A DNA stretch of 64,000 bases from Lycorma delicatula (taxonomy: Eukaryota > Arthropoda > Insecta > Hemiptera > Fulgoridae), in assembly GCF_047948215.1 (NCBI RefSeq), contig NC_134464.1:35773020-35837019 (forward strand), written 5' to 3'. The notes under the pieces were generated by a model. The model was not told the origin of the DNA, did not search any database, and saw only the letters and a list, made by a program, of their open reading frames with translations. The first letter of the stretch is position 1, and every line of letters starts with the position of its first letter. Position numbers and translations under genes: made by a program. Below, in pieces: positions 13,905-50,954 of the stretch.

Positions 13905-14530
13905 GTGTTCTATAACCAAGATCTGATCCGATACAAAGAAAAGCCGAGATCTACTGCTCCGCTAGGCATCAGAACTCACCGCCTTTTCTCGGCTCTAAAT
14001 ATACATTTACCTCCAGCTCTTACTGTTTCTCTATGTTATTACTGTCCTTGGCAGCCTTCTCTCATTAATTCCTGCTTTTATCTTTGTAAATGTAATATTA
14101 AAAAAAAAAACACAAATCCGGTTATCTTTCAAAACGAATTTTATAATATTATAAATAGCATGAATTATGATGTTACAGTTTACACGGACGGCTGTAGAAA
14201 CGTTAATTCTGTTGGTTGTGGTTTTGCGTTTGGCAACAGAACATACATGTTTGGCCTTCCCAGCATCACCAGTATTTTCGTTGCAGAACTGTATGCCATT
14301 AATAAGGCTTTACATACGGTTAGCCCAAAATTTCGACATGTTCTTGTTTGCTCAATTCCATGAGTGCTTTACAGACAATTGCTGACAATTATACTTCAAT
14401 TCACACATCCTGTTTTAAGATTTAGTGTATATTTCCCAAATGACTAGACGCAATACAAAAGTGAGCTTTTTGTATTGCCATATAGGAATTTCAGGCAATG
14501 GGCGCACGAACAGTGCGGCAAAAGAGGCGC
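13905..14530 (+). pseudogene. LINE C-terminal region with RNase H domain, broken
   Basis: Continues the element of 12415-13370. KPRSTAPLGIRTHRLFS is followed by an RNase H-like domain: VYTDGCRN (first catalytic Asp), GVGCGFAF-like VGCGFAFGNR, and SIFVAELYAINKALH (catalytic Glu). After stops comes GISGNGRTNSAAKEAL (about 14488-14535), the end motif of these RNase H domains, where the usual E/D-bearing GNERAD reads GNGRTN. RNase H would remove the RNA strand during integration. Position 14345-14480 contains stops, so the protein is dead. Confidence 0.8.
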
Positions 14531-14870
14531 TTTCGGGTATTTTGCCATCTTCAGGAGGGATTATAATTTATGATTGAAATATATAATAGTATAAAACTCA
14601 CATATTTAAATCATATGCACACCAGTTGATTGTCATTCTGTAAAAGTTTTGTAAAACTACGCCCGTATTATATAAATACAATACGGACAATAATACAACA
14701 TAACAGCTGCGATATTATTACAATGAAGACGTAGTAACTTTGGCTTAAGACTTTAACTTTTAAAAATGACGATCAATTATATATATAAAATCTAAATATG
14801 TAAGTTTTATACTATTATATATTTCAATCATATAATAATCCTTCCTGAAGGTGGCAGAGTAGTCGAAAGC
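14531..14870. repeat. Inverted pair of Penelope-like termini
   Basis: 14531-14630 and 14770-14870 are inverted copies sharing GCGCTTTCG, CTTCAGGA, and TGATTGAAATATATAATAGT followed by ATAAAAC. The minus-strand left arm and plus-strand right arm read CTGAAGRTGGCA..CGAAAGCGC. This resembles the CTGA..GAAA framework at the ends of Penelope-like elements. The central 140 bp is unique. The left arm abuts the LINE end. Confidence 0.55.
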
Positions 14871-15194
14871 GCTTGAGGGAATCGAATAATATATAAGTAA
14901 GCAGTTTATATATATTATACATAATAATTTATCTCTATGTTCGTTGACACATATGGTAGCTTTTGATTTCCCGTACATCGATTGTAGCAAGTTTATGTAG
15001 ACTGTGTTTATTCCCTGGTTATGCAATGCAGTTATAATGGCTTTCTTAGTTACCGAATCAAGTTCCTTTTTGTAGTTTTTATATATTTATATAAAATAAT
15101 GTAAAATCATCTCTTGCATAATATGTGTGTGTGTGTGTAGTAGAAATTGATTAACTTATGTAAATTATTATTTAAATTGAATTATATTATATTT
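14871..15194. other. No gene recognised
   Basis: AT-rich. A short (GT)8 lies at 15124-15139. Confidence 0.4.
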
Positions 15195-18732: not shown

Positions 18733-19386
18733 CCCCTAATTCTTATCATTATCAGGAACAAAATTCCACCCAATCGTATTTTTTGTTTTTTAACCATACA
18801 TAAGCTGAACGAAATTCTAACCAATCTTTGTTTTTTAACCAATCATAAGATGAAAGTAATTCTTATCATTATCAGGCACGAAATTCCAACCAATCGAATT
18901 CGTTGTTTTCTAACCAATCATTAGGTGAGTGTAATTCTTATCATTATCGAGCACAAAATTCCAACCAATCGTATTCTTTGTTTTTTAACCAATCATAATG
19001 TGAGGTAATTCTTATCATTATCAGGTACGCAATTCCAACCAATCTTATTCGTTGTTTTTTAACCAATCATAAGGTAATAATAATTCTTACCATTATTGGG
19101 CACAAAATTCCAACCAATCGTATTCATTGTTTTTTAACCAATCATAAGTTGAGAGTAATTCTTATCATAATCGGGCACAAAATTCCAACTAATCGTATAC
19201 TTGTTTTTAAACCAATCATAAGGTGAGATAATTCTTATCATCATCATCATGAACGAAATTCCAACCAATCGTATTCGTTGTTTTTTAACCAATCATAAGG
19301 TGAGAGTAAATCTTATTATCAGACACAAAATTCCAACCAATCGTATTCGTTGTTTTTTAACCAATCACAAGGTGAGAGTACGAGGA
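18733..19386. repeat. 75-bp CCAAT-box minisatellite
   Basis: About nine tandem units. The ATTCC(A)ACCAATC marker occurs at about 18763, 18814, 18883, 18958, 19032, 19106, 19182, 19258 and 19329. Spacing is 74-76 bp, except shortened early units (51 and 69) and the last (71). Each unit carries AATTCTTATCATTATC, AAATTCCAACCAATCGTATT, and GTTTTTTAACCAATCATAAG, so two CCAAT boxes per unit. The array lies exactly between two inverted mariner 3' ends. Coding is unlikely. Confidence 0.92.
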
Positions 19387-26322: not shown

Positions 26323-26330
26323 GGTCTTAT

Positions 26331-27170
26331 CAGTGGCGGCTCGCGTGTAGGCACTGTGGAACTCCAGCACCCCCTATTTCAACTTGACATTATCGATAAC
26401 GTTTAATATAATGAGTCCTTTTTTCTTTAATTCTTTCTTTATACTTGTACAATATATAATCCTTAAACTTAATGTCAGTAGCCAACCCCAGTTTATAAAA
26501 AAATCTTTGTACGGAACTGTGCGCTTCACAGTTCGGCGTGATGTTTAGCTGTTGTGCACATAGGAAGCTGCACGCAGGCTGCGAGGAAGAGAGCACTGTG
26601 GCTCCTACAATGCTGACCCTGGCGTGCTGGGAGAAGGTAGTTTTTTTTTACTCCGTGCTTGAATGGAACGTTCCTTGTTCGTTCCCATTTCTAGTTTTAT
26701 CGGTGGAAGGAATATGAAAGCGGTTTAGGTTTTTTTTCAGTAGTGATCAGAAGATGGAGGAAATCAAGGGCTCTTTGATTACCAAATCTGTTCAAAAACA
26801 CGCCGGAAGGGCGAAAAAGAAGGTAATTAGTAAAAACCAATTATGTATTTGTTTCTGCCTACGTAGAAATTTAAATTAAGCACCATTGGACTATAGTATT
26901 TTTAAGCGGACACTTTATTAAAGTTATTATCTAATAGTACTAAATAATATTATCTGTATTGACATTTTATTATTTATCCGAATACAGTGCTTAAAAACCG
27001 CATGCCATATTCTTGAATGTGATAAAGTACAGAATTAGGTTATTATCCTTCTTCCAGCTATTCTATTTGATTCATTTTTTCGGTTCTTATTTTTACAGAA
27101 AACTTTAACCATGGCCAAAAATATCTTCTGGAGCAGCACCCGTACTAATTTTAGCTACGAGCCGCCATTG
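26331..27170 (+). mobile_element. Non-autonomous hAT element carrying a host exon
   Basis: An 840-bp element with terminal repeats CAGTGGCGGCTCGCG and, at the other end, the reverse complement of CAATGGCGGCTCGTA (12 of 15 match). It is flanked by a perfect 8-bp duplication GGTCTTAT (26323-26330 and 27171-27178). An 8-bp duplication and a CAGTGGCG-type end are diagnostic of hAT transposons. No transposase domain was seen inside. The interior at 26740-26822 encodes the start of amphiphysin, so the element appears to have captured host sequence. Left of that, a GC-richer stretch (26500-26630) may be element or captured promoter and 5' UTR. Confidence 0.9.
26740..26822 (+). pseudogene. Amph: Amphiphysin first coding exon, inside hAT element
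   Basis: ATG at 26754 opens 23 codons with the signature KSVQKHAGRAK, followed at once by a splice donor (AAG|GTAATT at 26823). Upstream TTTTTTTTCAG ending at 26739 is a good acceptor, so 26740-26822 can be an internal exon with a short 5' UTR. In insect amphiphysin this region is the membrane-inserting H0 helix of the N-BAR domain, and in AMPH/BIN1 genes the first coding exon ends at the same place, after RAxEK. Here the last triplet block reads RAKKK, with Lys for the usual Glu. The following N-BAR codons were not found in the window. Since hAT ends and target duplication enclose it, I infer a captured copy, not the native gene, but the native exon cannot be fully excluded. Confidence 0.72.
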
Positions 27171-27184
27171 GGTCTTATATTTAT

Positions 27185-34905: not shown

Positions 34906-35189
34906 CTGTTTGTTGACGTTTGGGCACAGAACGTAGTAGAAGGAAATAATTTTTTTGTTTTATAACTTTTAGTGCGTTCTTTCTTCAGTTTTATTATTAT
35001 TTTCAATTTAATTTGTTTTAAATTTCTTAATTGTACTTTGTGTTAAAAAATCTGAATACAGGAAAAAAGTGCCCATCTAAAAATCGTTTTGAAAGAAACT
35101 ATTACAAGAAACCTCAGTCTTAATAATAATAAAGAAATAGTGTACAGAAACAATGTAAAAAAAAAATATATGACAATCGAGCATAACGT
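34906..35189. other. AT-rich spacer
   Basis: Nothing recognised. Confidence 0.35.
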
Positions 35190-36890
35190 TTTTTTCTTCA
35201 TTCATTTGACTGGTATGGTGTAATTCTCCAAGATTATTTACCTAGTGCCAGTCATTTCATTTAGGTTTATATCCCACAATCTACATCCTTAATTTGTTTT
35301 ACATATTCCAAACGTTGCCTGCTTGCACAATTATTCCCATCTACCTCCCTTCAATATTAAAGCGACTATTTCAGGGCTTTATATGCCTTAATATGTGGCT
35401 TATAAATCGGTGTCTTCTTTTAACTATATTTTTCGAAATGTTTATTTCTTCATCAATTTGCCGCAACACCTCTTCATTTTTCACTTTATTCACCCATCTA
35501 ATTTTTAACATTCTCATATAGCACCACATTTCAAAAGCTTTTAATATTTTCTTCTCAGGTACTCCGATCGACCAGGTTTCACTTCCATATAAAGCTACAC
35601 TCCAAACGTATACTTTCAAAAACATTTTCCTGACGTTTAAATTAATTTTTTATATAAGAAAATTATATTTCTGACTGAAAGGTCGTTTCGCTTGTGCTAT
35701 TCGGCATTTTATATCGCTCCTGCTTCGTCTATCTTTACTAATTCTACTTTCCATATAACTGAATTCTTGTAACTCCATAATCTGCTCTCATTCTATTTTT
35801 ATATTTAAAGGTTTATCTACATTATTTCTACTACATTGCATTATTTTCGTGTTCTTTTTTATTTTCATGCGGTAGTTTTTGCGTAGAACTTCATCCATGC
35901 CACTCATTGTTTCTTGTAAATCTTTTTTACTCTCAGCAAGAATTACTGTATCATCAGCAAATCGTGTAGCATCTTTATCTTTTCACTTTACACTGTTACT
36001 CCGGATCTAAATTTTTTTTTATCATTAACTGCTAGTTCCATGTAAAGATTAAAAAGTAACAGTGATAGGAAACATCCTTCTCGGACTCCCTTTTTTATTA
36101 CAGCTTTTTCTTATTGTCTTCGATTATTGCTATTGCAGTTTGGTCTCGGTAAATGTTAGCAATTTTTTTTCTATTTGTATAGTTGAACCCTAATTTTTTT
36201 TAAAATGCTTAATACTTTATTCCAGTCTGCGGTATTAAAGCCTTTTCTAAGTGCATAAATGCTACGTATGTTGTTTTCTTTTATCTCTTTCTACGATTAA
36301 TCTGAGCGCTAAAATTGCTTCTCTTGTCCCTATATTTTTCCTGAAACCAAACTGGACTTGTTGTAACACTTGTTCCACTCTCCTCTCAATTCTTCTGTAT
36401 AGAATTCTGGTTAAGATTTTTGATGCACGGCTAGTAAAGCTAATTGTTCTGTATTCTTCACATTCATCTGCTCCTGCTTTCTTTGGTATCATGGCTATAA
36501 CACTCTTTTTGAAGACTGACGGAACTTCCCCCTTTTCGTATATTACACACCAGTTTGTATAATCTATCTATCGCTTCCTCACCTGCACTGCGCAGTAATT
36601 CTGCAGGTATTCCGTCTATTCGAGAAGACTTTCTGCCATTCAAATCTTTTAATGCTCTATTAAATTCCGATCTCGGTATTGCAACTCTCCCTTTTCATCC
36701 TCTTCAACTTTTCTGTAACACCAGTTTCTAATTCATTTCCTCCGTTTAACTCTTCAATATATTCCACCCACCTATCCTTTTCTTTCTTATTATAAATTGG
36801 AATACCATCTTTATTTAACATTATTAGATTTTAATTTATGTACCACAAAATTCTCCTTATGGCCGTTTAAGTCCTTCTGACCTTATGCCC
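35190..36890 (-). pseudogene. Endonuclease-RT type LINE, long decayed copy
   Basis: Reads right to left. About 36720-36520: WVEYIEELNGGNELETGV then GIPAELLRSAGEEAIDRLYK, the linker before the RT. 36492-36262: MIPKKAGADECEEYRTISFT, ILTRILYRRIERRVEQVLQ, QFGFRKNIGTREAILALR. Then GVREGCFLSLLLFNLYMEL and a damaged catalytic block near 35970. 35625-35371: VYVWSVALYGSETWSIG, AFEMWCYMRMLKIRWVNKVK, NIVKRRHRFISHILRH. The 3' end has a short T run (35190-35196, the A tail). Matches the younger copy at 49731-50828. Endonuclease absent. Confidence 0.85.
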
Positions 36891-43229: not shown

Positions 43230-43875
43230 AGTAAAAAAATAGACAAAAATAATTTAAAGATGTTTCAGTTAATATGTAAACGAGGTACGACATTTGGTCA
43301 TCTGTCGGGGTTGGTATTCAAAGAAATCAACAAAAAAAAAGAAAATGATAAGTCTTGTGGTAGCGTCTCGACCTTTCATCTGGAGATCCCGGGTTCGAAT
43401 CCCGGTTAGGCACTGCATTTTTCGTACGCTACAAATTTCCATTTGAGTTAATGACCATAGCAGTTGAGTCCTTAATATCATAAAGAAAATAGTTAAAAAA
43501 ATAAAATTTAATTACATATACTTTGCACTTAGAACCACATTAATAAAAGAGAAGTAAAAAAATAGACAAAAATAATTTAAATATGTTTCAGTTAATATGT
43601 AAACGAGGTACGACATTTGGTCATCTGTCGGGGTTGGTATTTAAAGAAATCAACAAAAAAAAAGAAAATGATAAGTCTTGTGGTAGCGTCTCGACCTTTC
43701 ATCTGAAGATCCCGGGTTCGAATCCCGGTTAGGCACTGCATTTTTCATACGCTACAAATTTCCATTTGTGTTAATGACCATAGCAGTTGAGTCCTTAATA
43801 TCATAAAGAAAATAGTTAAAAAAATAAAATTTAATTACATATACTTTGCACTTAAAACCACATTAATAAAAAAGA
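43230..43875. repeat. 323-bp tandem duplication (two copies)
   Basis: 43230-43552 and 43553-43875 are direct copies with only about seven substitutions (roughly 98% identical), for example TATTCAAAG/TATTTAAAG, CTGGAGATC/CTGAAGATC, TTTTTCGTA/TTTTTCATA. Each holds a head-truncated SINE1 (about 43352-43475 and 43675-43798, plus strand) with an intact B box GGGTTCGAATCCCGG. A recent unequal event, not two SINE insertions, because the unique flanks are duplicated too. Confidence 0.95.
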
Positions 43876-44388
43876 AAAAACTGAGGTTTTATTAATCATT
43901 TCATGTTAAAGAAAATCTTTTTACAATGATATCTTAAGTACAAATTAAGGAAACAGAATGCATTTGTAAATTATGTTGTATGAAGTTATTAATCTTAGAA
44001 TTATCTCTTTTTTTATTGGGCATCAGTTGGAACATTACTAAACGTTTTTAACGAGGATTTATATCCATTGATTTGAAGATTGCATGGCTGAGAAGCAATT
44101 TTGACCGTTTCAAAGCGTCAAACTTTTATCAAGAAACTTGATTGGACGGCATGATCAAACACCATGGTTCAACTGAAATGCCTACAGATTAATTTTTCTA
44201 TGTTTGACTCCAAATAACTGTGTATTCATTCGCGTATTAAAACTGATGATTATTACTGCTATTGCAACCAATTTTCTAGAGATAGTTTTTATATTGAAAG
44301 TTATTTATCTTGTCATATAAAACTTAAATATTTTGGCCTTCAAATACCACAAATAACATCTCGCTGTTTGTAATTTTTTATCGTCATC
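43876..44388. other. No gene recognised
   Basis: AT-rich unique-looking sequence. Confidence 0.35.
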
Positions 44389-49730: not shown

Positions 49731-50828
49731 TTTTTTTTTTTTTGTCTTCAGTCATATTTGACTGGTTTGATGCAGCTCTCCAAGATTCCCTATCTAGTGC
49801 TAGTTGTTTCATTTCAGTATACCCTCTACATCCTACATCCCTAACAATTTGTTTTACATATTCCAAACGTGGCCTGCCTACACAATTTTTTCCTTCTACC
49901 TATCCTTCCAATATTAAAGCGACTATTCCAGGATGCCTTAGTATGTGGCCTATAAGTCTGTCTCTTCTTTTAACTATATTTTTTCCAAATGCTTCTTTCT
50001 TCATCAATTTGTCGCAATACCTCTTCATTTGTCACTTTATCCACCCATCTGATTTTTAACATTCTCCTATAGCACTACATTTCAAAAGCTTCTAATCTTT
50101 TCTTCTCAGATACTCCGATTGTCCAAGTTTCACTTCCATATAATGCGACACTCCAAACATATACTTTCAAAATCTTTTCCTGACATTTAAATTCATTTTT
50201 GATGTAAACAAATTATATTTCTTACTGAAGACTCGTTTAGCTTGTGCTATTCGGCATTTTATATCGCTCCTGCTTCGTTCATCTTTAGTAATTCTACTTC
50301 TCATACCTCCATAATCTTTTCTCCTCCTATTTTCACATTCAGTGGTCCATCTTTGTTATTTATACTACATTTCATTACTTTTGTTTTCTTCTTGTTTATT
50401 TTCATGCGATAGTTCTTGCGTAGGACTTCATCTATGCCGTTCATTGTTTCTTCTAAATCCTTTTTATTCTCGGCTAGAATTACTATATCATCAGCAAATC
50501 GTAGGATTTGTAAGTAGGATTTGTCAGTACCTTGTACTGTTACTCCGAATCTAAATTGTTCTTTAACATCATTAACTGCTAGATGCAGGTAAAGATTAAA
50601 AAGTAACGGAGATAGGGAACATCCTTGTCGGACTCCCTTTCTTATTACGGCTTCTTTCTTATGTTCTTCAATTATTACTGTTGCTGTTTGGTTCCTGTAC
50701 ATGTTAGCAATTGTTTTTCTATCTCTGTATTTGAACCCTAACCTTTTTAAAATGCTGAACATTTTATTCCAGTCTACGTTATCGAATGCCTTTTCTAGGT
50801 CTATAAACGCCAAGTATGTTGGTTTGTT
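49731..50828 (-). mobile_element. 5'-truncated endonuclease-RT LINE with target duplication
   Basis: Flanked by an 11-bp perfect repeat ATTGTTCTTTA (49720-49730 and 50829-50839). A 13-nt A tail (49731-49743 as T) marks the 3' end. Minus-strand coding from the 5' break: AFIDLEKAFDNVDWNKM, TATVIIEEHKKEAVIRKGVR, QGCSLSPLLFNLYLHLAVND, ILRFADDIVILAENKKDLEE (FADD catalytic pair intact), open for 170 codons (50813-50301). Then shifts and stops through VYVWSVALYGSETWTIG, RMLKIRWVDKVTNEEVLRQ and LEYVKQIVRDVGCRG to the tail. Endonuclease and first part of RT missing. The most recent LINE in the window. Confidence 0.95.
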
Positions 50829-50954
50829 ATTGTTCTTTAATGTAAGTATAACTTTTATACGATAATTAAAGAGCGTGCGGGTGACAATTTTGTGTGTAGT
50901 ATTTAAATATATAGTATAATTTGTTTTTCTATCATTATAAATTTATTTAAATAT

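Follow-up and report, generated by a model that had tools for sequence, protein, structure and literature searches.

Evidence that a hAT transposon family in Lycorma delicatula carries a captured first coding exon of amphiphysin

What is a first coding exon of amphiphysin doing between the ends of a hAT transposon? The question is raised by an 840-bp segment at 26331-27170 of a window on contig C10 (by window we mean the whole 64,000-nucleotide stretch of Lycorma delicatula DNA that we analysed; the genome comprises 2.2 Gb in 14 contigs), for which the original prediction had proposed that a hAT element captured the exon. Our analysis shows the segment to be a hAT element of the non-autonomous type, whose 13-bp inverted ends differ by one mismatch, and the same 8-bp target-site duplication, GGTCTTAT, stands on both sides of it, just as had been read from the letters of the window (Table 1). 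When the hAT end is sought in the window with up to three mismatches, four matches appear, and those with none or one lie only at the two ends of the element. The consensus of the element family (see below) has CAGTGGCGGCTCG at both termini, i.e. short terminal inverted repeats (TIRs) as in hAT MITEs, and finds short matches only (E 0.16 or worse) in the rest of the window.

Other repeats lie in the same 64 kb. A tandem array of ~7 copies of a 75-bp unit occupies 18828-19380, and long imperfect palindromes, with self reverse-complement matches of 79% and 70%, are found at 693-1084 and 14527-14872. The segments 35189-36280 and 49739-50828 are 81% alike and probably represent copies of one LINE; a reverse transcriptase fragment (RVT_1, E 5.5e-31) is encoded on the minus strand at 50301-50942. 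As for the assembly at large, its contig C14 (15,410 bp; our locus L041 is C14:1-10000) is the mitochondrial genome, judging from its reading frames and a methionine-rich COX1.

Table 1. Features of the hAT element in the window (numbered as in the 64-kb stretch) and exons of the native amphiphysin gene on contig C9
Feature	Position	Strand	Remark
Left target-site duplication GGTCTTAT	26323..26330	no strand	
Left terminal inverted repeat CAGTGGCGGCTCG	26331..26343	+	
Parental hAT element, 5' part	26331..26659	+	occurs in exon-free copies too
Donor-like GT (GAAG/GTAG) in 5' hAT part	26637..26638	+	exon-free consensus has the same site
Segment derived from native amphiphysin	26660..26983	+	= C9:22363857-22364179; right edge blurred in window copy
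Acceptor-like AG after T run	26739..26740	+	native locus has the same AG
Amphiphysin first coding exon MEEIKGSLITKSVQKHAGRAKKK	26754..26822	+	native and family consensus: MAESKGSLIAKSVQKHAGRAKEK
Splice donor GTAATT	26823..26828	+	phase 0, like native exon 1
Inverted-filler remnant and 3' part of parental hAT element	26984..27170	+	
Acceptor-like AG (TTTTTACAG/AAAAC) in 3' hAT part	27097..27098	+	
Right terminal inverted repeat, reverse-complemented CAATGGCGGCTCG	27158..27170	-	one mismatch
Right target-site duplication GGTCTTAT	27171..27178	no strand	exact 8-bp match to the left one
Native amphiphysin exon 1	C9:22363951-22364019		
Native amphiphysin exon 2	C9:22683307-22683442		
Native amphiphysin exon 3	C9:22688939-22689129		
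Native amphiphysin exon 4	C9:22695860-22696138		

The exon itself is open throughout its 69 nt up to the donor. Searched against the Protein Data Bank with a cut-off of E 10, its peptide has a single match, to residues 1-23 of 1uru_A, the Drosophila amphiphysin (E 0.00056; 16/23 identical), and when searched alone against Pfam the peptide retrieves no family. Other N-BAR exons were not found in the 64-kb window, where the next best tblastn match has an E value of 0.49. Position and phase (0) of the GT donor are those of the junction between native exons 1 and 2, which bears out the claim that an ATG exon ends here at the donor of the first amphiphysin intron. A polypyrimidine-CAG acceptor had likewise been placed 14 bp ahead of the ATG; the acceptor is present but the distance needs correction, as it ends at 26740 and thus 13 nt upstream. 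Finally, a Glu-to-Lys change near the exon end had been taken to hint at decay. The consensus peptide MAESKGSLIAKSVQKHAGRAKEK reads AKEK at this place, hence the change is not ancestral, and only two of 37 other copies compared (L019, L023) have Lys there. We take it as drift in the window copy and, in agreement with the prediction, as a symptom of that copy's decay.

Where, then, is the gene to which this exon belongs? With 250 residues of Drosophila amphiphysin as protein query, the best 150 of 1950 candidates were scored, and three of these are downstream N-BAR exons on C9. First-exon matches make up the other 147 (E 0.005-0.224); the match at C9:22363951 shares the strand of exon 2 and precedes it by ~319 kb. 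Joined together, with limits placed by hand at GT/AG, native exons 1-4 give 675 nt that are open throughout and encode an in-frame N-BAR of 225 aa; AG precedes exons 2, 3 and 4, and the junction after exon 1 is in phase 0. Intron 1 of the native gene (C9:22364020-22683306) would be ~319 kb long. As 150 of the 1950 candidates were scored, a second amphiphysin first exon, nearer to exon 2, could exist inside this interval. Of the remaining 146 first-exon places, the 17 that were fetched proved without exception to be element copies, and 4 more lie inside elements found by the DNA search.

That DNA search used the 840 bp as query, and the best 40 of 5404 first-look candidates, window included, were scored. 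All 40 have E values below 1e-200 and include, besides the window, 39 copies of 78-84% identity, most of them aligned over nearly the full element length. The amphiphysin exon region aligned in each of the 40; with the same structure in all these relatives, a chance motif is ruled out. The best 8-bp flank pairs, if shifts of up to 3 bp are allowed, are exact in 10/40, agree at 7 of 8 positions in 10/40 and score lower in 20/40; nine of the exact pairs, including that of the window copy, need no shift and the tenth a 3-bp one. In a control of 19,473 pairs taken across copies, exact agreement has a frequency of 0.0000 (rounded) and agreement at 7 or more of 8 positions one of 0.0092. Several copies thus combine the same chimeric structure with distinct target-site duplications, as multicopy Pack-TIRs do. 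Once L034 and L039, which nearly duplicate L026 and L036, had been removed, 38 DNA-found copies were left, which together with 17 protein-found ones (L045-L061) make up the 55 copies behind the 897-bp consensus of the exon-bearing (loaded) element; with both near-duplicates counted, we read 57 exon-bearing copies, window included. The exon-bearing places besides the native gene number 182 and spread over each of the 13 large contigs: these are the 57 copies read plus 125 matches by peptide score alone (E 0.0145-0.224 each; the native exon itself has 0.0511), and since the figure of 182 comes from best-scoring candidates only, the true number may be higher. Copies have drifted by 5.6-7.8% per site outside CpG, and more at CpG sites. 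The original prediction had set out beforehand how capture could be checked in the genome, namely by looking for many hAT-ended copies of the exon and for a separate native amphiphysin locus, and both are there.

How much of the native locus the element holds can be told from the alignment of its consensus to C9. About 323 bp are common to both (C9:22363857-22364179), 98.5% identical with 5 differences and no gaps, and they consist of 94 bp before the ATG, the 69-bp exon and 160 bp of intron 1. The match falls off abruptly at both edges; BLAST carried it 24 low-identity columns further to the right, so that the 323-bp edge is our own reading. As in Pack-TIRs, a host fragment lies in a TIR element and its parental gene is identified elsewhere, here amphiphysin on C9. 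The native sequence differs from the consensus by 1.5% per site, where the closest of the 55 copies reaches 3.1% and their median 6.2%, and the simplest reading is that the native C9 locus is the source of the captured piece. What speaks against capture is that the native noncoding flank has 3 differences in 254 sites, several times fewer than the copies. A native flank closer to the consensus than the copies requires an extra assumption, either that the flank is constrained or that the copies mutate faster. To our minds, it is simplest to assume that the native exon 1 flank (L062:857-1179) evolves slowly under constraint, and its noncoding part may be a constrained promoter or splicing region. 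Elsewhere in the window (43230-43876), two tandem units that are ~97% alike have the length of the captured piece, 323 bp, by coincidence; the element consensus has no match there.

Consistent with Pack-TIRs, too, a related element without the fragment exists. We joined the two hAT parts without the captured piece and used them as query: 29 of 44 match rows are near-full-length with a span too short for the captured piece (the 15 rows that are not near-full-length were omitted). The ten best-scoring of these 29 exon-free elements were read, and their consensus of 554 bp matches the hAT parts of the loaded element at 99-100% (356/357 and 197/197 positions). Words from the exon region (two tested) and from the filler described below are absent from all ten. 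Six of them pass straight from the 5' part to the GTGCTTA of the 3' part; this junction shows one change in L072 and L076, and the stretch is missing from L071 and L073. It is from this junction, which bears no trace of amphiphysin or filler, that we infer the exon-free form to be the parent of the loaded element; the alternative would be that exon-free elements could be secondary losses from exon-bearing ones. Median substitutions in the hAT parts are 0.071 for loaded (54 copies, as one of 55 was lost to a length filter) and 0.070 for exon-free elements (10 copies), equal divergences that, with best-scoring copies in both sets, amount to no unbiased dating. Going by these figures, loaded and exon-free elements were probably amplified in the same broad period.

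The right edge of the captured piece may tell how it was gained. Here, the element continues after native ATTCGGTT with an inverted copy of that very string, AACCGAAT; fuller copies carry an additional inverted copy of the adjoining parental TGTGCTTAAAAACCGT. The filler, put together as a composite, folds as two hairpins placed back to back (-21.1 kcal/mol, z -8.8). This full two-hairpin form is found letter for letter in 0/55 copies, the stretch being highly variable; a loose pattern of the two-armed second hairpin occurs in 24/55 and the exact core of the first hairpin in 10/55. Since strand switching in replication would leave inverted filler of this kind, a template-switch route is favoured, and the right edge does look like the outcome of replication template switching.

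We consider it very probable, then, that the element in the window is a Pack-TIR in which a hAT transposon captured the first exon of host amphiphysin, a reading for which the native source, the exon-free sister, the sharp edges, the target-site duplications and the copy family have been directly observed. By this mechanism, a short non-autonomous and exon-free hAT element of ~554 bp would have gained ~323 bp of host amphiphysin, likely by replication template switching that involved the native locus on C9, and the enlarged ~897-bp element would then have been copied genome-wide by hAT transposase acting in trans. The resulting set of copies would now decay neutrally, and those with ATG, open frame and donor might serve as portable start exons if they were transcribed and spliced.

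Could the window exon instead be the native amphiphysin exon in place, with hAT ends around it by coincidence? Such a view is compatible with a window that has no BAR exons elsewhere, if intron 1 is very long. Yet it is C9, as opposed to the window's contig C10, that has the native N-BAR exons together with a first exon that matches and is free of hAT ends, and the full 840-bp segment recurs genome-wide with the same ends. We hence reject the window exon as a native one and rate its chances as practically nil; the case foreseen in the original prediction, in which this would be the only amphiphysin first exon of the genome and spliced to downstream N-BAR exons, does not apply. A further rival is that the captured copies do something for the host, i.e. 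are maintained as start exons of host genes or as carriers of amphiphysin promoter activity. Among the 38 DNA-found copies, the exon is open and has its ATG in 23, the GT donor is kept in 33 and the AG in 30, and the 16 that keep ATG, frame, donor and acceptor would suit such a role, as would the apparent constraint on the source flank. Against it, changes in these 38 fit the neutral expectation (non-silent 141 vs 156.2 expected, silent 64 vs 61.6, p 0.35) and the conservation of exon columns (0.918) does not exceed that of the flanks (0.938 and 0.934). For all 55 copies, 29 of which keep ATG, frame, donor and acceptor, non-silent changes do show a deficit (175 vs 243.7 expected). We discount this as a sign of selection and ascribe it to search bias because the deficit resides in the 17 protein-found copies (34 vs 87.5), which are enriched for intact exons, rather than in the DNA-found ones. 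As a set, the exon copies show no detectable selection and, as far as their substitutions tell, are in neutral decay, so that maintenance by the host appears unlikely.

Another option sees the captured exon as a working part of the element, located in the first intron of a transposase gene and spliced on as an amphiphysin start or leader. The hAT parts flank the captured piece with a donor-like site (GAAG/GTAG, a putative donor of a transposase-gene intron) and an acceptor-like one (TTTTACAG/AAAAC), and in the consensus the frame after the captured exon continues without stop into KTLTMALKRPRKKFSGA before the 3' end is reached. KTLTMALKRPRKKFSGA may resemble hAT transposase starts and so could, we presume, mark where a transposase exon begins. 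Part of this stretch is gone from the window copy, in which an ATG at 27111 would be in frame downstream of its captured exon. Were the exon such a working part, it would have to be squared with an exon-free sister that multiplied as well and with the non-silent changes of the DNA-found copies, which show no significant deficit (141 vs 156 expected, p 0.35). Moreover, no transposase-bearing copy or autonomous element with the same ends was present at the 8 loci read of 130 DUF4371 matches, where no match to the element is better than E 0.07. All in all, we judge this option to be very unlikely. Capture of a host exon by the hAT element remains our preferred reading, and it leaves room for the idea, raised in the original prediction too, that the element shuffles a membrane helix into other genes. 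The family would then be a kit of portable start exons scattered over the genome, some of which might be transcribed, perhaps from the co-captured amphiphysin upstream sequence, and their phase-0, membrane-binding H0 segment spliced onto downstream host genes. We propose this tentatively and regard it as rather doubtful; if true, one capture event would have seeded many chimeric N-termini.

Among known systems, Pack-MULEs (named in PMC8277862) share with the amphiphysin family gene fragments placed between terminal inverted repeats. They belong to the Mutator superfamily and have plants as hosts. For animals, the passages of Tan et al. 2021 (PMC8277862) on which we draw here count 370 Pack-TIRs in 100 genomes, 208 of them in hAT elements, and mention four multicopy Pack-TIRs in reference genomes, none in insect ones. 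Frog Pack-hAT-N8_XT as described there is also a hAT TIR transposon with a host fragment (a CAPSL 5'UTR piece), has distinct target-site duplications at several loci and an identifiable parental gene and element, but it occupies three sites whereas we read 57 copies and count 182 matching places (PMC8277862). Unlike the animal Pack-TIRs in these passages, the amphiphysin family carries a first coding exon in full, donor included, and its consensus exon is in frame with the downstream acceptor-like site of the element (PMC8277862). A multicopy captured gene in an insect, for which a template-switch model was put forward as well, is Ssk-FB4 of Drosophila melanogaster; it differs by having four copies in fly populations, nearly a whole gene as cargo, FB4 rather than hAT as carrier, transcription and signatures of positive selection (PMC8277862). 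Template switching followed by transposition is the origin proposed for multicopy Pack-TIRs, and going by the text of that proposal the amphiphysin family agrees with it (PMC8277862). Pack-TIRs are therefore a known kind, of which the amphiphysin family far exceeds the multicopy animal copy numbers given in these passages of one survey (PMC8277862). In the open-licence literature searched, we found no paper on amphiphysin capture by a transposon, nor did the end sequence of the element occur there as a word.

What the locus offers is a capture whose stages are kept in one genome, with donor gene, empty element, loaded element with edge scars and copy family side by side. Two questions thereby come within reach of a test: by what route TIR elements of animals take up host DNA, and how frequently host genes use a captured exon that has intact splice signals. 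Last but not least, the copies provide a neutral yardstick against which the native start region of amphiphysin seems to be constrained beyond its coding exon.
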